NCBI GenBank assembly: GCA_021806865.1
Contig: JAKAPU010000026.1
Span: 1 to 21,343, forward strand
DNA: 21,343 nucleotides
Reading direction: 5' to 3'
From: an archaeon
Lineage (GTDB): Archaea > Thermoproteota > Nitrososphaeria > Nitrososphaerales > CADDZS01
Every line of letters starts with the position of its first letter. Position 1 is the first letter of the stretch. A program made the position numbers and the translations under genes. Shown here in pieces: positions 4,129 to 21,343 of this stretch. The notes under the pieces are model-generated. The model did no database searches. It was not told where the DNA came from and worked only from the letters and a program-made list of their open reading frames with translations.

Positions 4129-5229
4129 TCAGATCTTCTTGCGTTCTTGTGCAGGAAAATATTGTAGGTATCCGTGTCGCATAGCTATATCCACTATTCT
4201 CTCTGAATGTCTGATTAGAAGGCGATCAAGAGGCGGAGATACCGGAGAGTGCCACTTCAAAGCTGGAAACGTGCAGAGTTCTGCGCCGAAACTGCGTTTG
4301 AACCGAGCAAGTCCTGGAAGCCTTCTATCTATGCCTGTCAAATCGAAAACCGCATGTCCTTGTTTCTTCGCGTTTTCAATCATATAGCGCCAAATGAATG
4401 TGTATCCATTATACCTTGCATATTCTCTCAGAGACCCACCAGTCCAGCTGTAGACCATATTTGGATCGATTAGAAATGCAGTCGTCGCTATTGGTTTCTC
4501 GTCATAAATCGCGAACAACAACTTAATTTGATTTGAATCCTTGAACGTTCGGAAAACATCCTCATAGAAGCTTAATGGAAAGGGGGAAAAGCCAGATCGC
4601 AGATAAGTCTCTTTTATGATCCTGTAGTAATCGCCCACTTCGGATTCATCTTTGGCTTCGCGAATTTTGACACCGAGTTGATTTGATTTCCTCAAGTTCC
4701 GTCTGACATCAGGTATGAAACGAGATTCAATTGTTTCCATAGATTGTTTCAAGTCCAGCAACAATGTCTCTCTCCAAGAAATCTCACTCCTAGTAGAGCG
4801 AATTTGCTGGCAAATCTGTTGATCCTTATCCATAGAAGGTGATAAAACAACTCTTGCTCGGCCGAAGGGCATTGCAATATGAAACGCCTCCAAGAGTAGA
4901 AACCTGAACACACCAGGCCTATCAAGCGAACAAACTGGGCCTCCATATGGATTTTCAATGTCACCTACTGGTGAACTGATTTCTTTGTACCAAAAAGGTC
5001 TTGGAACATTTTGCACCGAAGGATGTGAATAGTAACCAAATTTAAATGGGAACACGCCGACTATTTTCCCTTCCTCTCGCGCAACCAAATCTACAACTCT
5101 TGAGTTGAAGGTGCGTCTGTGTATGTCGCACCATTCCCGAGAATGGTAAATTGTACCTGTTGGGCATGAGTAGACGAACTCGTTCCATTCTTGGAGATCT
5201 GACTCGGTCGCTCTTCTGACACTCAGCAA
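4129..5229 (-). CDS. FemAB/GNAT-type acyltransferase (BioF2-like)
   Basis: The 366-residue product matches FemAB-like acetyltransferases, which have two GNAT lobes: a first lobe over about residues 1-150 (YHSREWCDIHRR, DLVAREEGKIVGVFPF) and a second over about 170-330. The second lobe has the FIPDVRRNLRKSNQLGVKIR helix-strand entry, KLLFAIYDEKPIATTAFLI, and the closing LARFKRSFGAEL motif typical of the family. These enzymes transfer an acyl or aminoacyl group to a sugar or cell-wall precursor; archaea lack peptidoglycan, so a polysaccharide or lipid-linked sugar is the likely acceptor. The start is TTG at 5229, the only common start before an in-frame stop. An ATG at 5261 lies in a different frame and would join it if one base were restored. 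It is divergent from the sulfotransferase. Confidence 0.75.
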   Translation of the reverse strand: MLSVRRATESDLQEWNEFVYSCPTGTIYHSREWCDIHRRTFNSRVVDLVAREEGKIVGVFPFKFGYYSHPSVQNVPRPFWYKEISSPVGDIENPYGGPVCSLDRPGVFRFLLLEAFHIAMPFGRARVVLSPSMDKDQQICQQIRSTRSEISWRETLLLDLKQSMETIESRFIPDVRRNLRKSNQLGVKIREAKDESEVGDYYRIIKETYLRSGFSPFPLSFYEDVFRTFKDSNQIKLLFAIYDEKPIATTAFLIDPNMVYSWTGGSLREYARYNGYTFIWRYMIENAKKQGHAVFDLTGIDRRLPGLARFKRSFGAELCTFPALKWHSPVSPPLDRLLIRHSERIVDIAMRHGYLQYFPAQERKKI

Positions 5230-5438: not shown

Positions 5439-5468
5439 AGGCAATCACAACGAAGGCTAGTGCTTACC

Positions 5469-6347
5469 ATGGACTACAAGGGAGGCAACGTAGTCTTTAT
5501 CGTAGGTTCTGGCAGAAGCGGAACGACATGGCTCCAACGGTTGCTAGCCTCACATCCGAAAGTTAGAACTGGTCAGGAATCGAATCTGTTCAGTCAGTAT
5601 ATCGGGCCTCAATTGCGCAACTGGCACGCAGAGGAAAGAACTCTCGCTTGGAACCGCGGCGGAATTGGGATGCAATGTTATTTTGAAACTGACCAGTTTA
5701 TTTCAATCTTAAAGGAACATATGCTGAAGCTGATGCAACCAATGATAGGCCAGTTAAGGGAAGGCGAAATTTTCGTAGAAAAATCGCCAGACCACTCCTA
5801 TTGGATGAGTGAAATTTCTGAACTGCTGCCTGACGCACGCTTCATTCATATTCTCCGTGATGGGAGAGATGTCGCCGCTTCATTTATTGCTGCAAGCAAA
5901 TCTCACGGCACTGCTTGGGCTCCAAAGAGCGGAAGGTGGGCTGCCATGTGGTGGGTTCAAGCTGTACGGGCTGTTCAAGACGGAAAGAAAAAAATTCCAC
6001 GAGACAAGTTCGCTGAAGTTAGATACGAACAACTAAGAGCGACTCCTAACAACGAACTCCGTCGGCTGAGCGATTTCATGGGCCTAGATTGGAAAGACGA
6101 GGATATTGAGCGGGCAGTGAAAAGTAACGAGCCGAATACTTTTCGTGAGACTGGCGCAGCAATCCCGCTTGCTGGTAATTTTGGAAAGATATCAGGTCCT
6201 GTGGTCAAAGAGCCTGAAGGATTCGTCAGGCGAGCAAAGGCCGGGTCTTGGAAACAAGATCTCAGTACCGTTCAAAAGGTCCAGGTTTGGATTTATGCAC
6301 GGAAGACAATGAGGGAAGTAGGCTATTCTTGGACTTGGCCTTTTTGA
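5469..6347 (+). CDS. PAPS-dependent sulfotransferase
   Basis: This enzyme moves a sulfuryl group from PAPS to a hydroxyl, probably on a glycan. It has the complete family pattern (numbered from the ATG at 5469): the 5'-phosphosulfate loop GSGRSGTTWL near residues 13-22, VEKSPDH at about 103-109 with the candidate base His109, and the 3'-phosphate motif ILRDGRDVAASF at about 128-139. The length (about 292 residues) is normal for the Sulfotransfer_3-type family. A GTG three codons upstream (5460) is an alternative start. No membrane helix is seen, so it is cytosolic and would act before export. The APS kinase at 10711 would supply its co-substrate. The spacer to the next gene holds no supported gene. 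Confidence 0.88.
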   Translation: MDYKGGNVVFIVGSGRSGTTWLQRLLASHPKVRTGQESNLFSQYIGPQLRNWHAEERTLAWNRGGIGMQCYFETDQFISILKEHMLKLMQPMIGQLREGEIFVEKSPDHSYWMSEISELLPDARFIHILRDGRDVAASFIAASKSHGTAWAPKSGRWAAMWWVQAVRAVQDGKKKIPRDKFAEVRYEQLRATPNNELRRLSDFMGLDWKDEDIERAVKSNEPNTFRETGAAIPLAGNFGKISGPVVKEPEGFVRRAKAGSWKQDLSTVQKVQVWIYARKTMREVGYSWTWPF

Positions 6348-10710: not shown

Positions 10711-11220
10711 ATGACCGGATTACCAGTATCTGGTAAATCCACACTCGCCAAACTTCTCAAGCAGGAATTCGAGAAGCAACAAAGATTTTGCGAAGTCCTA
10801 GACGGGGATGAGGTGAGAAAAGGTCTCTCCGCCGATCTGGGACTTTCGAAGAACGACAGAGAAGAGCACGCGAGGCGCGTTTCTTATCTTGCAAAGGTTC
10901 TATCAAGAAATGGAGTGATCGCTATCGTCGCACTGATTTCTCCATACAGTTTGTCGAGAGAAAATGCAAAGCAGGTTATAGGAAGAGACAGTTTTGTGGA
11001 AGTGTACATCAAAGCCTCGCTTGCAGCATGCGAAAAGCGGGATCCGAAAGGACTCTACGCGAAAGCTCGCCGTGGAGAGATCAGCAACATGACCGGGATA
11101 CAGGACCCGTATGAAGAACCTTCGCGCCCGGCCATTGTAGTCGATACGGAGATGAGTGATCCTCCAAATTGTGTGAAAAATATAATGGAAGAACTACAAA
11201 GGAGGAATATGGCTAGCTAG
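10711..11220 (+). CDS. cysC: Adenylylsulfate (APS) kinase
   Basis: Phosphorylates adenosine 5'-phosphosulfate to PAPS in the cytosol. All family marks are present: P-loop GLPVSGKST (3-11), LDGDEVRKGL (30-39), DLGLSKNDREEHARR, the ISPY motif (76-79), and the lid/substrate stretch CEKRDPKGLYAKARRGEI, then TGIQDPYEEP. The P-loop differs from the usual GLSGAGKST but keeps Gly-x4-Gly-Lys-Ser. The ATG cuts into the first beta strand: in-frame codons before it read RPKGFTLW, which belong to the fold. Only a CTG at 10684 could start them. An ATG at 10667 (MEGRET) is one base out of frame. The true start therefore lies upstream. The partner is the sulfotransferase at 5469; no sulfate adenylyltransferase is in the window. 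Confidence 0.9.
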   Translation: MTGLPVSGKSTLAKLLKQEFEKQQRFCEVLDGDEVRKGLSADLGLSKNDREEHARRVSYLAKVLSRNGVIAIVALISPYSLSRENAKQVIGRDSFVEVYIKASLAACEKRDPKGLYAKARRGEISNMTGIQDPYEEPSRPAIVVDTEMSDPPNCVKNIMEELQRRNMAS

Positions 11221-11624: not shown

Positions 11625-12194
11625 TTGGCCTTCTCCTGGAACTCAAAGTTCGACCGCATTCTGATGAGTTGGAGGTACCGCGGGGTGTTCCTTTCTGATC
11701 TCTTCTTTTTTTCTCGCATGCACCTCGCGAGGTTCGCGGAGTATTCATTCACTAAATCGCGTATCTGGCTAAAGAGGACAAGCCAAGCATCCCGAAACTT
11801 TCTGAGCGAATTTCCGACAGACCAGAATTACACTACCTACGGAGGACAGGCGCAGTGGACAGCAAATATTTCCTCTTACTGGATGGGAGTGTCAATGGTT
11901 TACCTTGCTGTCTCGTTCGCGGTTGCGCCTGTCTCTCCAGCCCTTTCCACCGCCCTAAGAGTTGCAATCGTGCTGTTCCTCCTGCACTCGGTTAGCGCTC
12001 CATTCGGCTCCGGTATCTCGGCGAAGCGATTTCTGGCAGTGGCAGTATCCAAACTCTCTTACAGCTGCTGGAAACTCTACACCGTTACAAATTTCATCCT
12101 GCAAAATGTCCTAGCTTTTCTCGGGGCCCAATCCCTCAACCTTTCACTTCTGGTGAAGAGCAAGAGGGGCCTGACGACGCAAAAGGACTATTAA
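11625..12194 (+). CDS. Unrecognised membrane protein, probably a gene remnant
   Basis: A 189-residue frame with a basic first half (YSFTKSRIWLKRTSQASRN) and two or three hydrophobic stretches after about residue 85 (MGVSMVYLAVSFAVAPV, LRVAIVLFLLHSVSA, and a weaker one near 150-170), ending in SKRGLTTQKDY. The only start is TTG, and the same frame stays open with protein-like sequence back to 11577 (YLGIWITNLYLDIHSL), so the visible start is unlikely to be real. Its place just before a sugar epimerase suggests the C-terminal half of a glycosyltransferase or other glycan membrane enzyme, but I see no diagnostic motif. It may be broken like its neighbour. Confidence 0.35.
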   Translation: MAFSWNSKFDRILMSWRYRGVFLSDLFFFSRMHLARFAEYSFTKSRIWLKRTSQASRNFLSEFPTDQNYTTYGGQAQWTANISSYWMGVSMVYLAVSFAVAPVSPALSTALRVAIVLFLLHSVSAPFGSGISAKRFLAVAVSKLSYSCWKLYTVTNFILQNVLAFLGAQSLNLSLLVKSKRGLTTQKDY

Positions 12195-12225
12195 CGCATA
12201 CTACGGTCATAGTCTGAAGCAGGGA

Positions 12226-13228
12226 ATGGCAGGTTCTTCCAGGCGAGCGCTGGTCACTGGCGGAGCCGGATTCATCGGCAGTCACATCGTGGACTCGCTT
12301 GTCCTTGAAGGATACGAGGTAGGGTTCTGGACGATCTCTCCGGCGGAAGTCTCTCAAACCTTGAGGCAAGCAGCCAGTCAAAAAGGTTCACCTTTATGGT
12401 TCTGGTGCGTCTTAGGGAGATATCAACGACCCGGACGCAGTAAGGAAGGCGCTGCAGGATATCGAGACCGTATTTCACTCGGCGGCGATGGTCAGCGTTC
12501 CTCGATGTACCAAAGAGCCAGAGTTGGCAAAGCGCATCAATGTTGAAGGAACTCGCAATCTCCTCCGCATCGCCGCGGATTCGAAAGTTGAGCGATTTGT
12601 CTTCGCCTCTTCCGCCGCCGTCTATGGTAATTCTCAAGATCTTCCATTGAAGGCAGATTCCCAGACTGGACCAATCTCCGTGTACGGAGAAAGCAAGCTA
12701 GAGGCGGAGAAGCTGTGCCTAGAGATGCACAGGCAGACGGGACTCGGAACTACTGTGCTCAGGTACTTCAACGTGTACGGGCCTCGATCTCTGGGAGGGG
12801 AGTACGGCTCCGTCATCAACAAGTTCATGCAGAGACTCGAAAAAATGAAGTCGCCAATCATCAACGGGGATGGAAGCGCAACCAGAGACTTCATTTACGC
12901 GAAGGATGTAGCGCGAGCAAACGTTCTTGCTGCGTCAAACAGGGTTTCCAGCGGCAAGGTATACAACGTAGCCTCCGGGAAAAGGACGACGATAAGCGAG
13001 GTTGCGGATCTAGAAATGAGGTTGATCCTGGGCAAGAATCTTGTTCTCCCGCTGGAATACCGGCCGGCCTCAAAGGAGGACATACTGCACAGTTACGCTG
13101 ATGTCACAGCAATCAGAGAAGAGCTGGGATTTGAGGCCAGGTACTCACTCGAGGAAGGACTGACCGAGTACTTCAAGACGATGTTTCCTTCGCTTCCACT
13201 GAGCTGGCAAAGTGCGGAATGCGGCTGA
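12226..13228 (+). pseudogene. NAD-dependent sugar epimerase (GalE-like), frameshifted
   Basis: It begins with a textbook Rossmann start, RRALVTGGAGFIGSHIVDSL, in one frame. After GYEV the reading continues in a second frame as VLDDLSGGSLSNLEASSQ, and from about 12380 in a third, which holds a TAG (12413-12415) and then GDINDPDAVRKAL, VFHSAAMVSV, FASSAAVYG, the catalytic YGESK motif, RYFNVYGPR and NGDGSATRDFIY to the end. Both frame changes are of the kind made by one missing base; the second lies at a run of five A. An intact protein would be about 330 residues and convert UDP-sugars (for example UDP-Glc/UDP-Gal). It lies 31 bases after the membrane fragment, as in a glycan operon. Assembly error is possible for the indels, less so for the TAG. 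Confidence 0.8.
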
Positions 13229-13295
13229 TCGTTCTTGTACAGGTTACCAAACTAATTCGCAGAGCGCCATAATTTGACCTTCTAGTGAGGCCAGG

Positions 13296-13766
13296 ATGTG
13301 TGATTTAATGAAAAGAATCTTACTTCCAAAAATAAGTATAGCGTACATTCCCCGCACGTCCAACAGGAAGGATCCTGAGAAAAAGGAGGAGCTCAGAGAT
13401 CGGATAAGGGCAGCTATTGTTTCATCTGGAAATGACTTTGAGGAGCTGAAACAAAATTGCCTCAAAGAAGATTACTTGTCGCTCGATGTCACTTACAGGC
13501 TATACAACGACCCGAAGGTGGAAGGAAGATCTCGAAAGGACCTCGACAACCTACTGAAGATCTTGCTCGACGTCTTGCCGGAGAAGCTCTCGATCCAGGA
13601 CAACAAGGGAAGGAAAGGACTTGGAATCATCTCGGACGACAAGGACACAAAGATATTCGAGATCTGCTGCCGCAAGAAGCTCGTAGAAGTGGAATCGGAG
13701 GAAGGCATGGACCTCGAAATCTACGCACTGGACGAGGCCGAGGCACGGCTTGCTCCGAAGGTTTAG
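13296..13766 (+). CDS. RusA-like endodeoxyribonuclease (Holliday junction resolvase family)
   Basis: The 156-residue product has a basic N-terminal half and the RusA signature: KDLDNLLKILLD at 81-92 (Asp82, Asp84, Asp92) followed by ISDD at 112-115 (Asp114/Asp115). In E. coli RusA the matching DxDN and DD acidic residues bind the metal that cleaves four-way DNA junctions. The C-terminal tail (EVESEEGMDLEIYALDEAEA) is unusually acidic. The start is ATG 13296; a second ATG at 13308 is possible. Its stop overlaps that of the aldehyde dehydrogenase by four bases. RusA is best known from phages, so a chromosomal archaeal copy may be a prophage relic or a domesticated repair enzyme. The family call rests on the acidic motif spacing. 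Confidence 0.6.
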   Translation: MCDLMKRILLPKISIAYIPRTSNRKDPEKKEELRDRIRAAIVSSGNDFEELKQNCLKEDYLSLDVTYRLYNDPKVEGRSRKDLDNLLKILLDVLPEKLSIQDNKGRKGLGIISDDKDTKIFEICCRKKLVEVESEEGMDLEIYALDEAEARLAPKV

Positions 13767-15274
13767 GCCTTGTAAGGGAACAGGTAAGGCAGGTTCGGCT
13801 TTTCGTTCCAGTCGATGTAGCACGTTTTCAGCTGGGTGTAGTGTTCAAGCCCGTATCTCGAGCCCTCCGCGCCTACGCCGGTCTGCCTAAATCCCGTGTG
13901 TGCTCCTTGCAGTTGTTCAGGTCCGACCTGATTCACGTACGTCTCCCCGAACTTGATCTTGTGCATTCCCTTCATTATCCTGTTAGAGTCTTTTGTAAAC
14001 AGGTAGGAAGCAAGCCCATAGTCAGAATCGTTCGCGTACTCTATCGCCTTGTCGAAGTTATCCACCTCGAGTATCGGGACTACCGGCCCGAATATCTCCT
14101 CCTGAACAAGTTTTGAGCCTTGGTCCACATTTTCGATTATCGTCGGAGAGAAGAACCAACCTTTCCGAGGCACCCTAGGCTCGTCTCCTCCGAGTATTAT
14201 CTTGTCGCCCTCTTCTCTTGCTTGTTCTACAAATTTCCTAGTGGTCTCTCTTTCTCCGTAGCTAACCATCGGTCCCAAATCGGTGCTAGGATTCGTTGGA
14301 TTTCCAATCCTCAGCGCCTTGACTGATCTTGCAAATGCAGAGACGAACTTGGCCTTGATCTTTTCATCGACGTACATCCTTTCGGAGCAGATGCACGTCT
14401 GACCGCAGTTCCAAAATCTCGCCCAGACAGCGCACTTCAACGCCCACTCCAGGTCGGCGTCGTGCCAGACTATGAACGGAGCCTTCCCGCCTAACTCGAG
14501 AATCAGTTTTGCCACGTGGTTTGATGATCGTGCCATTATCTTTTGGCCGGCGGAAGTGCTGCCAGTCATCGTGATGAGAGCGGTCTTTTTGTTTGCGACC
14601 AGTTCGTCTCCGACATCTGATCCGGAGCCGGTCACCACGTTCAACACGCCCTTTGGGATTCCTGCCTGTTCCGCGAGTTTCACCATCTCGATTGTGCTTA
14701 AAGGAGTATTGCTGGAAGGCTTTGTGACCACGGCGTTACCTGTGATCAGGGCAGGAGCAAGTTTCCTTGCGACAGTTGCGGATGGAAAGTTCCACGGGGT
14801 GATCGAACCGACCACGCCCAGCGGTAGTTTCAGAATCATGATCGTCTGCTTTGGAAAATCGCTCGGCAGCACATCTCCCTCGATCCTCCTGGCAAATTCT
14901 GCATAATACTCGAAATTTCCTACTGCGCCGTCTATCTCAAGCCTCGATTCGTAGAGCGGCTTTCCTTCCTCAGCAGTCAGTATTCTTGCCAGTCTATCTC
15001 TCTGGTCTCTCATCAGCTCTGCAATTTTGAGCAAGATCTTGGCTCGTTGCAGCGGAGCATAATCTTCCCACTTTTTCTGGGCTCTTTCGGCAGCGTCAAT
15101 GGCGCGTCTCACGTCCTCTCTCGTTGCTCTTGGAACTGTTGCAAATTTTAGCTCGGTTGTAGGATTCACGACATCAATCGTTTCACCGGATTTGGAATCT
15201 ACCCATTCCCCATCAATGAACATCGAGTAGTTTTTCGAGCTGTTCGCAGCTTTTCTGGAGGAAGAACTTAGCAT
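13763..15274 (-). CDS. NAD(P)-dependent aldehyde dehydrogenase (lactaldehyde/glyceraldehyde type)
   Basis: A full-length 503-residue ALDH that oxidises an aldehyde to a carboxylate. All key residues are visible: TPWNFP with Asn162, TKPSS with Lys185, the TGST turn at 237-240, ELGGKAP with general base Glu260, the nucleophile Cys294 in NCGQTCICSERM, and EEIFGPV with Glu393. The overall look (LELGGKAPFIV, EEIFGPVVPI) fits archaeal lactaldehyde, succinate-semialdehyde or glyceraldehyde dehydrogenases; substrate cannot be read from motifs. It starts at ATG 15274. Base composition is clearly more G/C-rich than the island to the left. It is convergent with the RusA-like gene with a four-base overlap of stops. 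An 11-bp inverted repeat about 95 bases upstream may regulate it. Confidence 0.93.
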   Translation of the reverse strand: MLSSSSRKAANSSKNYSMFIDGEWVDSKSGETIDVVNPTTELKFATVPRATREDVRRAIDAAERAQKKWEDYAPLQRAKILLKIAELMRDQRDRLARILTAEEGKPLYESRLEIDGAVGNFEYYAEFARRIEGDVLPSDFPKQTIMILKLPLGVVGSITPWNFPSATVARKLAPALITGNAVVTKPSSNTPLSTIEMVKLAEQAGIPKGVLNVVTGSGSDVGDELVANKKTALITMTGSTSAGQKIMARSSNHVAKLILELGGKAPFIVWHDADLEWALKCAVWARFWNCGQTCICSERMYVDEKIKAKFVSAFARSVKALRIGNPTNPSTDLGPMVSYGERETTRKFVEQAREEGDKIILGGDEPRVPRKGWFFSPTIIENVDQGSKLVQEEIFGPVVPILEVDNFDKAIEYANDSDYGLASYLFTKDSNRIMKGMHKIKFGETYVNQVGPEQLQGAHTGFRQTGVGAEGSRYGLEHYTQLKTCYIDWNEKPNLPYLFPYKA

Positions 15275-15311
15275 TTTGCAGAAACCTGTCCGTGTACAGA
15301 TTGTTCTGTAG

Positions 15312-15321
15312 ATGTATTAAC
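15312..15321 (-). promoter_or_regulatory. Putative TATA box for the aldehyde dehydrogenase
   Basis: Minus-strand GTTAATACAT lies about 42 bases before the ATG. A start site about 25 bases further gives a leader of about 16 bases. Confidence 0.35.
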
Positions 15322-15367
15322 GCTTCACTGAACCGCACATGCTTGATATCAACTCAAACAACAGTAC

Positions 15368-15392
15368 ACTAGACTGGAATGTCCAGTTTAGT
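15368..15392. promoter_or_regulatory. Inverted repeat, possible operator
   Basis: ACTAGACTGGA, a 3-base centre ATG, then TCCAGTTTAGT: 10 of 11 positions pair. It lies about 50 bases upstream of the dehydrogenase TATA element, between that gene and the divergent V4R gene. The length and dyad fit a dimeric regulator site; a short hairpin in RNA is the other option. The rest of the 15275-15695 spacer holds no supported gene. Confidence 0.4.
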
Positions 15393-15624
15393 CCATGAAT
15401 TACAATCAAGATGTGGAACAGTATCATTCTCTCAATTCAGAGAGAGAATAGCTCCTTCACACTGCATTTTTGAATACAAAGAATCGCGTAGAAGAAATCT
15501 AGACGTTTTCTACAAGGTGCTTGATCTTGCACTTCATTCTTGGCTTACTTTCACTGGGGAATTTTGTGGTGTTCACTTTGCTTCTGTATATTTCAACAAG
15601 AAGCTTAATCTGTACCATGGCTAC

Positions 15625-15632
15625 GATAAAAG
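15625..15632 (+). promoter_or_regulatory. Putative TATA box for the V4R gene
   Basis: GATAAAAG lies 64-71 bases before the GTG. A start about 25 bases on would leave a leader of about 40 bases, which contains AGGGGGA 7-8 bases before the GTG as a ribosome site. Confidence 0.35.
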
Positions 15633-15695
15633 TTAAGGCCGAGCGTTCAAGTCTTCGAGAGGAGATTCTCAAATGAATGAAGGGGGACCGTCTAC

Positions 15696-16202
15696 GTGGA
15701 ATCGCGAAGCAATCCCGGATGCATAATTGATCCATTCTTGAAACTCAGGGTGATGGTGATTGATGCAGAGTTTTACAAGTCGCTGAGCGATAAGATGTAT
15801 GATTCGTTCCAGAGCGGAGCATCTGTCATCCTATATGAAATGGGACTGGGATACGGGGAGTTGATGGGCCGGAGAATGAAAGAGATTGGGACTTCCAGGC
15901 TCCAGATCGTCAAAGATCTTATCGAGCTTGGAAAGACTCACGGGTACGGCGAATTCAGCACTCCTTTTCTCAAAATGATAATATCAGGAATCCGCGGTGA
16001 GCCGACTGTGAGACTCGAGAATAGTTTTTTTGCATCAGCCGTCGGAAGTACTGGAAAGACCGAATGCTATCTGATCGCTGGAATCATAGCTGGCGCAAAT
16101 CAGATACTTTTCAACAGAAAGTTCACATGTGCGGAGGAGAAGTGTCTCTCGAAGGGAGACCCATACTGCGAATTTAGACTAAAGCCTATTGAATCAGAAT
16201 AG
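15696..16202 (+). CDS. V4R-domain small-molecule-binding protein
   Basis: The 168-residue product has the V4R (4-vinyl reductase) layout: an N-terminal strand and helix (LKLRVMVIDAEFYKSLSDKM), ASVILYEMGLGYGE near 42-55, and the C-terminal Cys-containing hallmark CAEEKCLSKGDPYCEFRL at 145-162 (Cys145, Cys150, Cys158). V4R domains bind hydrophobic small molecules or metals and in archaea often stand near regulators. The start is GTG 15696, chosen because AGGGGGA stands 7-8 bases before it and residues 8-20 continue the domain; an ATG at 15753 with AGGGTG before it is an alternative. It is convergent with a winged-helix regulator and may be its sensor partner. Confidence 0.8.
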   Translation: MESRSNPGCIIDPFLKLRVMVIDAEFYKSLSDKMYDSFQSGASVILYEMGLGYGELMGRRMKEIGTSRLQIVKDLIELGKTHGYGEFSTPFLKMIISGIRGEPTVRLENSFFASAVGSTGKTECYLIAGIIAGANQILFNRKFTCAEEKCLSKGDPYCEFRLKPIESE

Positions 16203-16269
16203 AAAATTCGATTCCTATGCACGAAGACTTATTCGGGCGAAAAGAACAACGAGCCAAGATTCCAAGTGC

Positions 16270-16312
16270 TAGCTAACTGCTCTTCTATTAGAGGAAAGAT
16301 CATAGTTAGCTA
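16270..16312. terminator. Stem-loop between convergent V4R and regulator genes
   Basis: TAGCTAACT (16270-16278) is fully complementary to AGTTAGCTA (16304-16312), with a 25-base loop that itself holds CTCT/AGAG. The right arm is part of a perfect 12-base palindrome AGTTAGCTAACT (16304-16315), so TAGCTAACT also occurs twice as a direct repeat. It could be a bidirectional terminator or a paired protein site. No T-run is present. Confidence 0.4.
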
Positions 16313-16335
16313 ACTACTTGTTGACCATGTTGTGC

Positions 16336-16725
16336 TTAGTACCGGAATTGTTGTGCAACTACGACGTTCTGAACTTGCGCGTCGTTGAAGCTCAGGTCCT
16401 CTCTCAACGAGAGATATTTGTTGAGCAAGCCGAATCCCTTCTGCGTTAGATGAAACATTCTCTTCCCATCTACGACAGCCGAAGTGATGATTCCGTTGCC
16501 TTCCAAATTCGTAATGTACTCCTGCATTACACTCCAAGAAAGATTTGCCTTGTACATGATGTGCGTTGGTCTCTGAGCACCGCTGCCTACGGCCCTCACG
16601 ATTTCGCAGTATGTTTCCATTTTCGATCTTCTGTTCAGTTGTCCTTGCGTCTTCTCTCCCGGTATTAGATATGGTTCTGACAATTCGAATCCCAAATCCC
16701 TATTCTTTTCGAATGTATCGAACAT
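16336..16725 (-). CDS. ArnR1-like winged-helix transcription regulator
   Basis: The 129-residue product holds a single winged helix at about 31-107 of the archaeal ArnR1-like/HTH_45 type: NRRSKMETYCEIVRAV (helix 1), THIMYKANLSWSVMQEYITN (helices 2-3, including the characteristic THIMYKANLS), then the wing VVDGKRMFHLTQKGFGLL. Such proteins bind DNA as dimers and in Sulfolobus control archaellum genes; the target here is unknown. The C-terminal 20 residues are Gln/Val-rich. There is no membrane helix, unlike ArnR itself. It starts at ATG 16725. Two GGCC-TTTTGGAAA repeats lie 30-70 bases upstream and could be its own operator. The gene is downstream of the KaiC-like gene on the same strand. Confidence 0.8.
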   Translation of the reverse strand: MFDTFEKNRDLGFELSEPYLIPGEKTQGQLNRRSKMETYCEIVRAVGSGAQRPTHIMYKANLSWSVMQEYITNLEGNGIITSAVVDGKRMFHLTQKGFGLLNKYLSLREDLSFNDAQVQNVVVAQQFRY

Positions 16726-16753
16726 TGTAACATGCTCGATTTAGCCTTCTAGG

Positions 16754-16790
16754 GGCCTTTTGGAAAGGATTGATTGGCCACTTTTGGAAA
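16754..16790. repeat. Tandem TTTTGGAAA elements before the winged-helix gene
   Basis: GGCCTTTTGGAAA (16754-16766) and GGCCACTTTTGGAAA (16776-16790) share GGCC plus TTTTGGAAA, with the cores 24 bases apart (just over two helical turns). They sit just upstream of the ATG at 16725, where a regulator or activator would bind. Confidence 0.4.
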
Positions 16791-16869
16791 ACGGCAAGAT
16801 TTGTCGTGATCAGAAGGAAAAATCAATTTTCAGGCTATAGAGCACGAACCCATCCGAAAGGTCGACCAG

Positions 16870-17577
16870 TCAGCTTGAGAAGGCTAGAATGGAAAGCCCG
16901 TTTGGAGTGAAGGAAAGCGTGTGATACTTTTTGTCGTGGTCAGTTCCCCTGAGTTTCTTGATTATGAATCTGGTCCGTATTTCCATCTGCTGAGTAAGAT
17001 AGCTCTCAATCTGAAAAATTCCATCGGCAATGAATTCCTCTATCCCGTTAGTGTTGTCAGTCTCCGAGATCTGTTTACTCACTGTCATCAGCGTCGTTAC
17101 GCCTTCCCTCTTCAAAGTTTTGTACACCAGGTGCATCATCAATGCGTAATCGAACTTCTCGTCCGATCCGCTGAGAAACGCAGTCAGAGAATCGACAACG
17201 AGTCTCTTTGCCTTGAGCTGATCCAATGCATCCAGTATGACCTGAATGTTTGAGCTTAGACCTCCTCCTTCCAACGATTCCAGGTCAATCACTTTGAGCA
17301 TCTTCTTTGACTCAAGCTGGTCGAGATCCATTCCGAACCTCAGCATGTTTCGTTTCAAGCTCTTAACATCCTCTTCGAAGCTCGCAAAAACCGCTGGTTG
17401 GTTTAGCAACTTAGCGGAGTTGTACACAAAGTGTGTGGAGAATATGGTCTTGCCTGTGCCTATGCCGCCCTGGAGAAGAACAAAATCACTTTGCCTCAAT
17501 CCTCCCTGGATCAAAGGGTCCAAGCCAGGTATCCCTGTCGGTATCCGTTTTTCTTCGCTGATAGTGGCCAACGGCAC
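16870..17577 (-). CDS. KaiC-like RecA-superfamily ATPase (single domain)
   Basis: The 235-residue product is one KaiC/GvpD-type RecA domain: GIPGLDPLIQGGL (15-27), Walker A GGIGTGKT (37-44), the paired catalytic glutamates in FEED (Glu68/Glu69), and Walker B RLVVDS with Asp129. The end, KLRGTDHDKKYHTL, is typical of the family. These archaeal proteins are ATP-driven switches in signalling; they are not proof of a clock. It starts at GTG 17577 with GAGGA about 8 bases before it. It is a paralogue of the protein at 19719: same length class, same motifs, RGTDH ending. It is divergent from the UbiA gene. Confidence 0.87.
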   Translation of the reverse strand: MPLATISEEKRIPTGIPGLDPLIQGGLRQSDFVLLQGGIGTGKTIFSTHFVYNSAKLLNQPAVFASFEEDVKSLKRNMLRFGMDLDQLESKKMLKVIDLESLEGGGLSSNIQVILDALDQLKAKRLVVDSLTAFLSGSDEKFDYALMMHLVYKTLKREGVTTLMTVSKQISETDNTNGIEEFIADGIFQIESYLTQQMEIRTRFIIKKLRGTDHDKKYHTLSFTPNGLSILAFSS

Positions 17578-17671
17578 AGCTTTGTTCCTCTGCTGCTTAA
17601 AATGAGTTATCTCTGGAGTCTTCAGACAGCATGAGACGTTGAATCTCGCCTACTGATGCGAGCTCCATTTC

Positions 17672-17690
17672 TCTTTTATTAACTATAAAG
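17672..17690. promoter_or_regulatory. Shared A/T-rich divergent promoter core
   Basis: TCTTTTATTAACTATAAAG. On the plus strand CTATAAAG would start transcription about 35 bases before the UbiA ATG. On the minus strand TTTATAGTTAATAAAAG could serve the KaiC-like gene with a leader of about 70 bases. Confidence 0.4.
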
Positions 17691-17748
17691 CCTGAATGTT
17701 CCTGATCATGAGTAATAGTTGTTGCCCAGATTGGTAGACGCTTGATCC

Positions 17749-18615
17749 ATGAGTTTGCTTTCGACCCCGATAGTGAGAGAGCTTGTATACGGCGGACACA
17801 TGCTCTCCATAGGATGCGCCAGCATAGCGGCAGCTACATCCATGCTTCTGGGGCGATTGCCCACCCCCCCTCTGCTGGTGATGGCTTACTTGTTCTCCTT
17901 TGGGGCCTACATGATAAACAGAGCCTCGGAGATCGACCAAGATCAGATTTCAAACCCGGAGCGAACTAGACATCTTCAAGGCAGAAAGGCAGCACTTCCG
18001 CTGATCGCTGGAGGTGCCTTTGCGATCGGATACGTGTTGGCATTTTTTTCGAATTTGATTTTCCTCATAGCCCTGATAATCCCACTTATCATGGCGTTGC
18101 TTTACAGCGTCGGCTCAAAGAAATTCACCAAGATTATTGGTGCCAGACGTCTAAAGGATCGATTGCTAGTGAAGAATATTGCAATCTCGATAGGCTGGTC
18201 TCTGATTCCGCTGCTTGTCGGATTGTATTTTGAAGCGCTCAGTCTTCCAATCGTGACTTTTGCTATATTCATCTTCCTCAGGTTGATGTCAAACACCATA
18301 TTTTTCGACATAAGAGACGTGAAGGCAGACAGCCAGTACGGAATCAAAACAATGCCATCGGTTTATGGAGTGAGCGCATCCTACAAGCTGATGAACGTAA
18401 TCGATGCTATGGCGGCTACCTATTGCCTTATGGCGGTCGCGACAGGCTTACTTCCAATCTACTCTCTCATTGTACTTGTTTTTCCGCTATACTCCTATGC
18501 ATACAGGATTGCAGCCAAGCGCTCAGGTTCGTATGGTTACTATTCAGACGTTGTGGCTGACGCAGAGTATCTGTTCTGGGGCCCTGTAATGATGATCGGG
18601 AGTTTCCTAATCTAG
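17749..18615 (+). CDS. UbiA-family polyprenyltransferase
   Basis: An integral membrane enzyme (288 residues, about eight or nine helices) that joins a prenyl chain to an acceptor. The first Mg-binding motif is a variant of NxxxDxxxD: Asn57, Glu61, Asp65 in NRASEIDQD. The second is DIRDVKAD (Asp187, Arg189, Asp190, Asp194). A basic loop RRLKDRLLVKN lies between. Candidate products are an archaeal ether lipid (digeranylgeranylglyceryl phosphate), a menaquinone-type quinone, or a carotenoid elongation product. The gene 15 bases downstream makes its prenyl donor. The Glu in place of the first motif's Asp is unusual. It starts at ATG 17749 with a TATA box about 60 bases upstream. Confidence 0.85.
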   Translation: MSLLSTPIVRELVYGGHMLSIGCASIAAATSMLLGRLPTPPLLVMAYLFSFGAYMINRASEIDQDQISNPERTRHLQGRKAALPLIAGGAFAIGYVLAFFSNLIFLIALIIPLIMALLYSVGSKKFTKIIGARRLKDRLLVKNIAISIGWSLIPLLVGLYFEALSLPIVTFAIFIFLRLMSNTIFFDIRDVKADSQYGIKTMPSVYGVSASYKLMNVIDAMAATYCLMAVATGLLPIYSLIVLVFPLYSYAYRIAAKRSGSYGYYSDVVADAEYLFWGPVMMIGSFLI

Positions 18616-18629
18616 GTGGCATATCGAAA

Positions 18630-19628
18630 TTGCATGCTGAATCGGAGATTGACTCCGTTCTCTCGGAGTACAGAAGGATTCTTGAGAAAGCACTGAAGGA
18701 AGCTTACTCACAGGTGTATGTTCTGGAACGTGTTTCTCTGGAGAGCACGCTAGCAGGTGGGAAGAAACTCAGACCGATTCTAGCTCTCCTTTCCTGCGAA
18801 ACGATTTCCGGCAGCTACGGCAAGGCAATTCCGATCGCCATAGCTTACGAGCTTGCACACTCCGCTTCACTGGTGCAAGATGACATAATTGACGACTCTG
18901 ATTTAAGGCACGAGAAAGTCGCTCTGCACAAGAGGTTTGGCGTAACAAAGTCAATAATTGTTTCAGATCTCATGATTTTCGAAATGTTCACTCAACTCGG
19001 AACATATGGAGACTCGGACCTCCCGAAGGAAAGACTGGGAGATCTCTTGCGATTGGTTTCGAGATCAGCGAGGCTGACGGCTCAAGGTGAATTTCTGGAG
19101 ATCGGGCTGACCTCTAAAGACAGGATATCTGAGAGTGAGTACCTAGAAGTTGCAAAGCTCAAGACCGGTTCACTTCTCGCCGCAACTTCGGCCTCAGGAG
19201 GAATAGTTGCCGGAGCCCCCGAAGAAGTTGTCGATTCGCTATACCGATTCGGTTTGAATCTTGGTATTGCTTTCCAAATGAGGGACGATGTGCTCGATAT
19301 AGTCGGGGAGGCGCAAAAACTAGGGAAACCTGTGATGAAGGATGTACAAAACAACGCCTGTAACATTGTGCTTGTACACGCCAAATCGAACGCGAACGCT
19401 GAGCAAAAGAATGTCATAGATTCCATGGTTTACTCAAAGTGGTTTACTTCCGGAGACGTAAAGAAACTTCTCAAGGTTCTCAAAGATCTTGGTTCGATAG
19501 AATATGCGACAAAACTCATCTCCAAATATGCCGACGCGAGCAGAAAGTGCCTCGAAGTGCTCCCAAACAACCTTGCAAGAGACAAACTGTCAAAGCTCAC
19601 CCACGCCCTAGAAGAGAGAAAAGTGTGA
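18630..19628 (+). CDS. Trans-polyprenyl diphosphate synthase (GGPP or longer)
   Basis: Condenses isopentenyl diphosphate onto an allylic primer. GGKKLRP is at 43-49, the first Asp-rich motif QDDIIDDSDLRH has Asp84/Asp85/Asp88, a GEF(L) motif is near 153, KTGSL at 178-182, and the second motif QMRDDVLD has Asp219/Asp220/Asp223. The residue five before the first motif is Ala79, as in octaprenyl-type synthases; archaeal C20 enzymes usually have Tyr or Phe there. So the chain may exceed C20. The loop after the second motif (GKPVMKDVQNNACN) lacks the usual GKxT. The start is TTG, in an operon with UbiA; GGTGG lies 12-16 bases before it. Confidence 0.88.
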   Translation: MHAESEIDSVLSEYRRILEKALKEAYSQVYVLERVSLESTLAGGKKLRPILALLSCETISGSYGKAIPIAIAYELAHSASLVQDDIIDDSDLRHEKVALHKRFGVTKSIIVSDLMIFEMFTQLGTYGDSDLPKERLGDLLRLVSRSARLTAQGEFLEIGLTSKDRISESEYLEVAKLKTGSLLAATSASGGIVAGAPEEVVDSLYRFGLNLGIAFQMRDDVLDIVGEAQKLGKPVMKDVQNNACNIVLVHAKSNANAEQKNVIDSMVYSKWFTSGDVKKLLKVLKDLGSIEYATKLISKYADASRKCLEVLPNNLARDKLSKLTHALEERKV

Positions 19629-19670
19629 ACGAGTTACTTTGAAACCAAGTTTCCGAAAGAGCTCTGACTC

Positions 19671-19684
19671 GATAAAGATAAAAC
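19671..19684 (+). promoter_or_regulatory. Putative TATA box for the second KaiC-like gene
   Basis: GATAAAGATAAAAC lies about 35-48 bases before the ATG at 19719. The predicted leader is about 15 bases, so the gene may be transcribed apart from the synthase that ends at 19628. Confidence 0.35.
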
Positions 19685-19718
19685 AAGGCGCGAAATCGTA
19701 GGAGAAAAGTGGACAAAC

Positions 19719-20396
19719 ATGAGCCAAAAGACCTTGTTGAGGATTCCCACTGGAGTGAAAGGTCTCGACGAACTGATTGAGGGTGGCCTCGTACGCGGTC
19801 AGGTTCATCTTTTGGTTGGTGGTCCTGGAACTGGAAAGACCATACTCGCATCAAACTTCGTCTACAATGCAGTAAGCAAGCTCGGTGAAAAGGCAGTATA
19901 CGCAACCTTTGAAGAATCTTCTGATTACTTTAAGCGAAATCTTCTCGGACTGAAAATGGACTTTCAGGCACTGGAAAAAGCTGGCAAGGTGAAGATTCTC
20001 GATCTTGAAATGCTACGCGGTAAGGGACTGGAATCAAACATCGCGTATTTACTTGAAGTCGTAGATCAGACAAAAAGCACTATACTTGTGATAGATTCCC
20101 TGACAGCGCTCCTTCTTGCTTGCGAGAGTCAATTTGAACAAAGAACTTTCATGAAAATGATGTACAAGTCGCTGAAGGACAGAGACGTCACCACATTTAT
20201 GACTGTAAGCCTAACTCAAACTGGCAAGGTTGGACCGGAGGGATTTCTCTCCGACTCTGTGATGTTGCTCGAGAACTCGCTCGCCAATAACGAGTTCAAA
20301 ACAAGATTCCTAATCCAAAAGATGCGAGGCACGGATCACAGTCGCAGGTATCACTCTGTCGCGTTGGGTCCAGAACTTTCGATCATTAGGTATTAG
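19719..20396 (+). CDS. KaiC-like RecA-superfamily ATPase (second copy)
   Basis: A 225-residue single RecA domain: GVKGLDELIEGGL (12-24), Walker A GGPGTGKT (34-41), catalytic pair Glu65/Glu66 in TFEES, Walker B ILVIDS with Asp126, and KMRGTDHSRRYHSV near the end. All ATPase residues are intact. It differs from its paralogue at 16870 in the region after Walker B, where partner choice may lie. The stop is two bases before the ATG of a 7TM signalling protein, so the two are almost surely translated from one message and may act together, the ATPase as cytosolic partner of the membrane sensor. Confidence 0.88.
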   Translation: MSQKTLLRIPTGVKGLDELIEGGLVRGQVHLLVGGPGTGKTILASNFVYNAVSKLGEKAVYATFEESSDYFKRNLLGLKMDFQALEKAGKVKILDLEMLRGKGLESNIAYLLEVVDQTKSTILVIDSLTALLLACESQFEQRTFMKMMYKSLKDRDVTTFMTVSLTQTGKVGPEGFLSDSVMLLENSLANNEFKTRFLIQKMRGTDHSRRYHSVALGPELSIIRY

Positions 20397-20398
20397 TT

Positions 20399-21343
20399 AT
20401 GGCGGCGCCGGGCGCGGAGCTGGTAGCTCCGGTAATAGTTCTGATCGCAATAGTCTTGACGGGATTGTCAGGATATTATGTCTACCTTCAAAAGACGACG
20501 TTATACAGGGAAGTGAAAAACCTTCTAGTTTACGTTCACATACTATTCGAAGGAGTTCTAGTAGTTGAGTTCTTACGAAACTTCCTTTCCTCTTCTTTTT
20601 TCATGTTCGTCTACACTGATTTTGGTACTAGTTTCATCATTTGGGATGTTCTGTTACTCACAGCAGTGGCGACCATCGTATATCTTCGGCCAAAGCAAAC
20701 TGGTATACGAGGGCTGATCAAAGAAACGTTTGAAAAGAAATTTACGGCGATGCCTTTGACAGCATTCTTTTTCTTCACGATAGTTGCCGACGCCTATCTC
20801 TTCGCGTTTAATCCCTACACAATCGTCAAAGTGAAAAACCTGGCAGGCATTACGCTTCCTTCTTCAGCCTTTGACACTTCCTACTTGCTGGTTGTATTTG
20901 CAATACTCGTGCTTTTCGCAGTCTTCTCGTTGTCGCTTTTCTTGCTCGCCAGATCGAGAAGCAAGGATCATCAAGTTCGCAGGGCGCTCTTGATACTGCC
21001 TATTGTCTGGGTTTCAATTGGTGTTGATCTGGTTTATTTCAATGGCTTTCTCTTATCGCAGGGCATCGATGCAGTTGCGGTAGGTTACATGCTGGCTGCA
21101 CTTGCGTTTGGAATCACGGCCACAATTTTCAGGCGAGCATCGCTTCTATCCGGGTTTTTTGAGACTGTCGCCGTGACTCAGACAATTTCGCCGACTCATC
21201 CGTTTTCAAAGAAGCTGAATATTCCAGAAACGTCTCTGTTGGGAAGAATATTCTTGTTTGAGGTAGATCCTTCCTTCAACTACGAACAAGGTGTCAAAGA
21301 ATTTGCGATTGAAATGATGTCCGCAAATGCGGCCGTGTTTGCT
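20399..21343 (+). CDS. 7TM signalling protein with start of a DUF835/MEDS-like domain (cut by window end)
   Basis: An ATG at 20399 opens a frame with no stop to the window end (315 codons seen). About seven hydrophobic helices (roughly 8-30, 40-60, 76-96, 117-137, 161-183, 196-216, 224-244) resemble the 7TM sensor half of archaeal histidine kinases. The cytosolic part starts near 265, and FLFEVDPSFNYEQGVKEFAI near 285-304 is like the opening of DUF835 or MEDS sensory domains, which follow a RecA-like plan. The rest is outside. No kinase motif is visible yet. The role is probably membrane sensing, with the KaiC-like ATPase two bases upstream as partner. The domain name is an inference from one motif. 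Confidence 0.7.
   Translation, partial: MAAPGAELVAPVIVLIAIVLTGLSGYYVYLQKTTLYREVKNLLVYVHILFEGVLVVEFLRNFLSSSFFMFVYTDFGTSFIIWDVLLLTAVATIVYLRPKQTGIRGLIKETFEKKFTAMPLTAFFFFTIVADAYLFAFNPYTIVKVKNLAGITLPSSAFDTSYLLVVFAILVLFAVFSLSLFLLARSRSKDHQVRRALLILPIVWVSIGVDLVYFNGFLLSQGIDAVAVGYMLAALAFGITATIFRRASLLSGFFETVAVTQTISPTHPFSKKLNIPETSLLGRIFLFEVDPSFNYEQGVKEFAIEMMSANAAVFA

Follow-up and report, generated by a model that had tools for sequence, protein, structure and literature searches.

Gene content of the locus

We analyzed a 21,343-bp stretch of archaeal DNA (contig JAKAPU010000026.1, hereafter the window) in which the genes for a UbiA-family prenyltransferase and a trans-polyprenyl diphosphate synthase (PPS) are enclosed by two genes for KaiC-like ATPases and followed by a gene for a protein with seven hydrophobic segments (7TM protein). 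An open reading frame and Pfam check of the window found all seven genes of the region at the positions given in a preliminary description of the sequence:

15696..16202, + strand: V4R-domain protein, 168 aa (PF02830, E 2e-13, 50.6 bits, cut-off 31); edge gene, not conserved in the locus
16336..16725, − strand: HTH_45 winged helix-turn-helix (wHTH) protein, 129 aa (PF14947, E 2.4e-18); frequent locus member
16870..17577, − strand: KaiC-a, single-domain KaiC-like ATPase (PF06745, E 2.4e-50); divergent from UbiA
17578..17748, no strand: intergenic stretch of 171 bp between the divergent KaiC-a and UbiA genes, with an AT-rich block near 17670-17690
17749..18615, + strand: UbiA-family prenyltransferase, 288 aa (PF01040, E 2.2e-19, 70.2 bits); member of a clade of its own, best named model PRK13591
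18630..19628, + strand: PPS, TTG start (PF00348, E 7.7e-58); both Asp-rich motifs, the first within ASLVQDDIID
19719..20396, + strand: KaiC-b, single-domain KaiC-like ATPase (PF06745, E 1.3e-45); 2 bp before the 7TM gene
20399..21343, + strand: 7TM protein whose C-terminal domain is DUF835-like; the gene runs past the window end, and the complete product (P0168) has 456 aa

The UbiA, PPS, KaiC-b, and 7TM genes form a same-strand run with gaps of 14, 90, and 2 bp, and the wHTH gene lies behind KaiC-a on the same strand as KaiC-a. The V4R and wHTH genes converge, and V4R is part of no operon visible in the window. Coordinates and Pfam matches thus bear out the preliminary description, which had placed two KaiC-like paralogues around UbiA and PPS, one of them divergent from UbiA and the other coupled to a sensor gene. 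It had also put the V4R and wHTH genes on one side and the 7TM gene on the other; these positions are correct, but V4R is not a constant member of the locus (see below). Database entries for the full-length 7TM and UbiA proteins of the window (P0168 and P0001) come from a 91.7-kb contig. Among named records, the nearest is a metagenome-assembled genome of a Nitrososphaerales archaeon (L001), whose UbiA is 58% identical.

Conservation of the locus in related archaea

Searches with the UbiA protein returned matches in 11 of 300 genomes from the class of the closest relative genome, G001 (E ≤ 1e-10), and in 24 of 300 from its order (E ≤ 1e-25), the two sets overlapping and the genomes probably being incomplete. 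We annotated the loci of 26 relatives, or 22 once near-copies (> 85% UbiA identity) were merged. PPS was found on the same contig in all 26 and directly adjoined UbiA in 24, lying elsewhere in L024 and L081. The 7TM gene was present in 21 loci, that is, in 21 of the 22 whose contig reaches far enough (those of L016, L084, L085, and L086 end before it could appear); the single miss is L024, and in L022 the gene stands some kilobases from the rest of the locus. KaiC-a was missing from none of the 23 loci with enough contig to show it, the contigs of L082, L090, and L092 starting too late; in L024 it is represented only by a distant KaiC, and the KaiC of L025 scores near both the KaiC-a and the KaiC-b types. 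Where KaiC-b and the 7TM gene occur together, they are separated by at most 10 bp in 14 of 17 loci, the window included. Gene order is kept even though the UbiAs of the 23 dereplicated loci (again with the window) share a median identity of 51%, the lowest value being 35%, and two rearranged loci, L081 and L025, retain the same gene set.

As a control, we applied the same search to UbiA paralogues of the same 11 genomes. All 26 locus UbiAs had a KaiC or 7TM gene within ± 1.5 kb, versus none of 33 paralogue loci (32 distinct genes, since L015 and L061 show the same one; drawn from 54 non-locus matches among 65 UbiA matches). The 11 genomes contain 4-16 KaiC-family matches each, so adjacency by chance should be small. 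The association of KaiC and 7TM genes with the locus UbiA therefore exceeds chance, and the neighborhood is a real, specific, and conserved unit of Nitrososphaeria archaea. Independent scattering of the signaling genes, named in the preliminary description as the outcome that would speak against a link to UbiA and the synthase, was not observed for KaiC and 7TM.

Co-occurrence and loci lacking UbiA

Among the 300 order genomes, the 7TM protein was matched in 28 and UbiA in 24, with 23 in common (Fisher p 1.5e-28, kinship being ignored). In G277, G326, and G339 the best 7TM match is on a contig other than that of the locus. The one genome with UbiA and no 7TM match, G347, has its contig cut. 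Five genomes have the 7TM protein without UbiA: G306 and G311, G215 (7TM, KaiC-b, and PPS, then the contig end), and G263 and G344, where no KaiC is in view of the 7TM gene. In the PPS tree, the proteins of G306 and G311 group within the clade of locus PPSs (support 97/98), next to that of L081, which suggests loss of UbiA. In G277, KaiC genes, 7TM, and PPS occur together a second time, there lacking UbiA (L130, 6155-11556). From these UbiA-less loci and the L130 set we conclude that PPS-KaiC-7TM is the tightest kernel and UbiA a near-constant partner.

Two further details concern loci of this kind. At L123 (5278-12217) and L124 (2513-9476), KaiC-a, an AsnC-type gene, PPS, and KaiC-b stand between two 7TM genes with no UbiA, and a 290-aa gene adjoins the L130 set.

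The prenyl-lipid enzymes

The motifs N/D-R-x2-E/D-x3-D and D-x-R-D-x3-D, which we take to be the two Asp-rich motifs of UbiA enzymes (the first with Asn), are kept in 27 of 27 sequences, the window UbiA having NRxxExxxD and DxRDxxxD, so the locus UbiA looks catalytic. Its best NCBIfam model is PRK13591, which has no stated function (69.5 bits, below the cut-off of 238). Of the other four UbiA genes of G172, two score above the cut-off as heme-O synthases, while the remaining two, of archaeal-lipid and menaquinone type, stay below their cut-offs; as these are separate genes, the locus UbiA is an extra one. In a tree, locus UbiAs and distant UbiAs of other Thermoproteota lie on one side, apart from the paralogues, with support 100/100; the tree omits L156 from the distant set as well as seven cluster loci that were near-copies or had open-ended frames, and the MenA rows and two others are long-branched and unsure in placement. 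We rejected heme-O synthase, the archaeal-lipid DGGGP synthase, and the menaquinone enzyme MenA as identities on the basis of NCBIfam scores and this tree. With this locus comes a UbiA clade distinct from all the usual ones.

The distant members came from 9 of 398 phylum genomes, G001 being a tenth match, and share the clade and the best NCBIfam model with the locus UbiA. An HTH-type gene directly precedes UbiA in seven of the nine, and it was FilR1-type in all six that were scanned. Two distant UbiAs, with their HTH genes, stand in a mevalonate-pathway-like gene set with GHMP kinase, AcnX, AA_kinase, and PPS genes (L152, 7187-16467, and L156, 1039-10458; Pfam was run for part of L152). A further gene in the set is presumably UbiD-like, and the whole looks like an archaeal mevalonate-pathway cluster.

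The PPS of the window has both Asp-rich motifs, DDIID and DDVLD, with Ala at position -5 and Gln at position -1 of the first. In many PPS paralogues, position -5 is Trp, Phe, or Glu and position -1 is His, but Ala at -5 also occurs in some paralogues of the same larger PPS group, such as L104, L108, and L118. By the known relation of such residues to chain length, the product may exceed C20. Further PPS genes are present in each of the 11 genomes. In the PPS tree, from which partial frames were omitted, the PPS of L024 falls outside the main locus clade.

The KaiC pair and the 7TM protein

KaiC-a and KaiC-b are distinct paralogues, each with a single PF06745 domain over 225-235 aa that scores well beyond the Pfam cut-off. 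Walker A, the catalytic EE, and Walker B are kept in all 15 KaiC rows of the alignment. The 7TM family shows seven distinct hydrophobic segments over residues 8-244 (alignment-averaged hydropathy, eight peaks of which two overlap), and P0168 taken singly gives 11 peaks, several overlapping. DUF835 is matched at E ≤ 0.01 by 40 of 50 family members. This domain is listed as an inactivated KaiC in the accessible text of PMC5847659, which, together with the weak match of the window protein, makes a relation between KaiC and the 7TM protein plausible. HisKA_7TM scored 12.2 bits (cut-off 28.6) and was matched at E ≤ 0.01 by one of 50 relatives; a PDB search with the 7TM family gave one weak match only (E 0.15).

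V4R, HTH genes, and the intergenic stretch

The preliminary description had counted V4R among the signaling genes around UbiA and PPS, a role that did not survive comparison with relatives. A V4R gene is near the locus in only four of 26 (L023, L078, L090, and L024), and in G001 the strongest relative of the window V4R is on another contig (L134, 8783-9391, 218.7 bits); we therefore rejected V4R as a core part. In the 11 genomes, five of 22 V4R genes have a strong KaiC gene no more than 6 kb away, compared to 0.6 expected by random placement. Two of the five are one G201 pair, one is from G202, which has nearly the same UbiA as G201, and one is the G176 locus itself, so that kinship and overlap leave few independent cases. 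At L024 the V4R gene follows PPS and has a very weak DUF835 match (E 0.067) with no evident 7TM. V4R-like matches also stand directly beside UbiA paralogues (G001:C112, 13872-15254; G210:C22, 4658-5303). In a weak alignment (15.9 bits, E 0.12), the window V4R shares three Cys and one Glu with the V4R domain of MopR, a phenol sensor; these residues bind zinc in MopR-type sensors according to the available part of PMC10715001. The two belong to the same family, whereas the window protein is stand-alone with no other domain.

Genes of HTH_45 type are frequent in the loci: L001 and L079 have a relative of the window gene next to KaiC-a, and in L020 and L080 one follows past the 7TM gene. A gene for an AsnC-type HTH protein, usually of 360-390 aa, is found in most relatives, either between KaiC-a and UbiA or adjacent to KaiC-a, and nearly every locus has an HTH gene of some kind. 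A scan for sigma-70 type promoters, a model not suited to archaea, gave about as many matches as in shuffles.

Proposed function and alternatives

We tentatively propose, as a reading that may well prove wrong and yet the one we prefer, that a module of active and inactive KaiC domains controls a dedicated prenyl-transfer branch. What the sequence itself shows is a conserved gene order, the co-occurrence of the genes, ATPase and prenyl-enzyme motifs that are intact, and seven hydrophobic segments; from these we infer sensing, protein contacts, the direction of signaling, and the product. The dedicated PPS would make a prenyl diphosphate, probably longer than C20, which the non-canonical UbiA would transfer to an acceptor. 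The 7TM protein, ending in a putatively inactive KaiC-like (DUF835) domain, would sense the state of the membrane or its lipids and pass it to the active KaiC ATPases. These may in turn act on the winged-helix regulator (HTH_45 here, in most relatives perhaps the AsnC-type protein), which would set transcription of the UbiA-PPS-KaiC-b-7TM operon and of the divergent KaiC-a. The signaling idea of the preliminary description, in which V4R and the 7TM protein sense an isoprenoid, lipid, or membrane state and KaiC relays it, is retained here in its tie of KaiC and 7TM to UbiA and PPS and in a plausible KaiC-7TM relation, and is given up for V4R as a core part.

Several observations weigh against this proposal. 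Twin KaiCs cannot be a requirement, since L020, L023, L080, and L090 have no KaiC-b between PPS and 7TM. G306 and G311 keep KaiC-a, AsnC, PPS, KaiC-b, and two 7TM genes without UbiA. In the most distant member, G277 (L024), ~ 4.7 kb separate PPS from UbiA, the KaiC next to UbiA is only distantly related (91 bits), and the 20 kb covered contain no 7TM gene. No KaiC or 7TM gene was in view of any of the nine distant phylum UbiAs, two of which were visible over only 3.7 and 4.6 kb. Residues 324-437 of P0168 match DUF835 weakly (18.8 bits versus the Pfam cut-off of 33.1), and comparison of the 7TM family profile with these KaiC proteins by hhalign found no relation (probability 0.2%); the inactive-KaiC reading of the C-terminus thus rests on the family name. 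On the regulatory side, the AsnC-type protein is missing from the KaiC-a/UbiA region of the window and of L001, L078, and L079. No conserved operator was found in the KaiC-a/UbiA stretch, for which an alignment of five relatives was uninformative; one of its rows, L083, spans the AsnC-type reading frame, so the alignment is not a purely intergenic set.

An unlikely alternative is that the genes have simply been co-inherited in one lineage without functional coupling. Every KaiC-bearing locus found belongs to the class searched, the distant UbiAs have no KaiC, and the P140-MoxR-VWA genes described below recur beside the locus as well and may be mere shared background. Against co-inheritance, the order persists over a UbiA identity range of 35-82% despite differences in the flanking genes, the paralogues of the same genomes lack KaiC and 7TM neighbors, intergenic gaps are short, and the rearranged L081 and L025 keep the gene set. 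We also consider it improbable that control is exerted at the protein level, with the KaiC ATPases binding or assembling UbiA and PPS at the membrane as a metabolon or scaffold and the wHTH and V4R genes as unrelated neighbors. KaiC-a, UbiA, PPS, and 7TM are indeed the most constant set, regulators vary between HTH_45 and AsnC types, UbiA and the 7TM protein are membrane proteins, and the KaiC homologue ArlH is a component of the archaellum motor, as the accessible text of PMC13286277 has it; the HTH gene at nearly all loci speaks against such control.

To a different use of the same enzymes, in which the PPS/UbiA product acts as ligand of, or membrane cue for, the 7TM protein or V4R and serves signaling instead of general lipid supply, we likewise assign a low probability. 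Both enzymes come in addition to the canonical sets, loci that have lost UbiA still combine PPS with KaiC and 7TM, G277 has a second PPS-7TM-KaiC set, the V4R gene that follows PPS in G277 may carry a trace of DUF835, and the window V4R keeps the Cys and Glu residues of the MopR zinc site as given in the available part of PMC10715001. Set against these are the rarity of V4R near the locus and the fact that enzymes under ordinary feedback control would look identical. Its full form, a self-contained system in which the product of PPS (and UbiA) is read by the 7TM/inactive-KaiC receptor and relayed by KaiC to DNA-binding proteins, seems to us quite doubtful; if true, it would be an archaeal signaling lipid with maker, receptor, relay, and regulator in one gene set. 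Least probable by far is a carotenoid pathway with UbiA as a lycopene elongase, as in haloarchaea. Genes of the carotenoid biosynthesis protein family PF04240 occur in five of the 11 genomes, beside UbiA in G277 (L024) and ~ 6 kb off in G201 (L018). Phytoene/squalene synthase (PF00494) was found in none of these 11, probably incomplete, genomes versus seven of 14 control genomes, which makes the pathway unlikely, and PRK13105, presumably the lycopene elongase model, scored 17.5 bits (cut-off 217).

Relation to known KaiC systems

To our knowledge, there is no answer as to what most KaiC-like ATPases of archaea control. By tying two of them and a sensor-like membrane protein to a defined enzymatic branch, the locus could allow the output of one KaiC system to be measured as lipid. 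KaiC ATPases have been proposed as archaeal signaling hubs (PMC5847659 and PMC13286277, in their accessible parts, citing Makarova, Galperin, and Koonin 2017). As far as these parts extend, the present unit resembles such hubs in its KaiC-like ATPases and inactivated KaiC (DUF835) domains and differs in having two prenyl-lipid enzymes built in. The cyanobacterial KaiABC clock shares the ATPase family, whereas it has a double KaiC domain and the locus has two single-domain paralogues and no sign of a clock. Our literature search found no description of a KaiC-UbiA/PPS gene set; the main KaiC-hub paper (mBio 2017) was beyond its reach and may mention such neighbors. By the literature searched, the unit is a previously undescribed variant of archaeal KaiC signaling, with a mechanism that would follow the scheme proposed above.

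Surroundings of the locus

In L001, positions 12081-15722 hold genes for a protein of a 140-aa type without a Pfam match, a MoxR-type ATPase (CbbQ_C), and a 580-aa product. They recur beside the locus in several relatives, that is, in part of the loci, and P140-MoxR-VWA is our own labeling of them. Left of the locus in the window are genes for FemAB/GNAT (4132-5229), a sulfotransferase (5460-6344), adenylylsulfate kinase (10711-11217), and aldehyde dehydrogenase (13766-15274), perhaps a sulfation and surface-glycan set. An NAD-dependent epimerase gene (12226-13228) is split over two overlapping frames, with the start of the profile at 12226-12543 and the rest at 12488-13225, which is a frameshift or a sequencing error.

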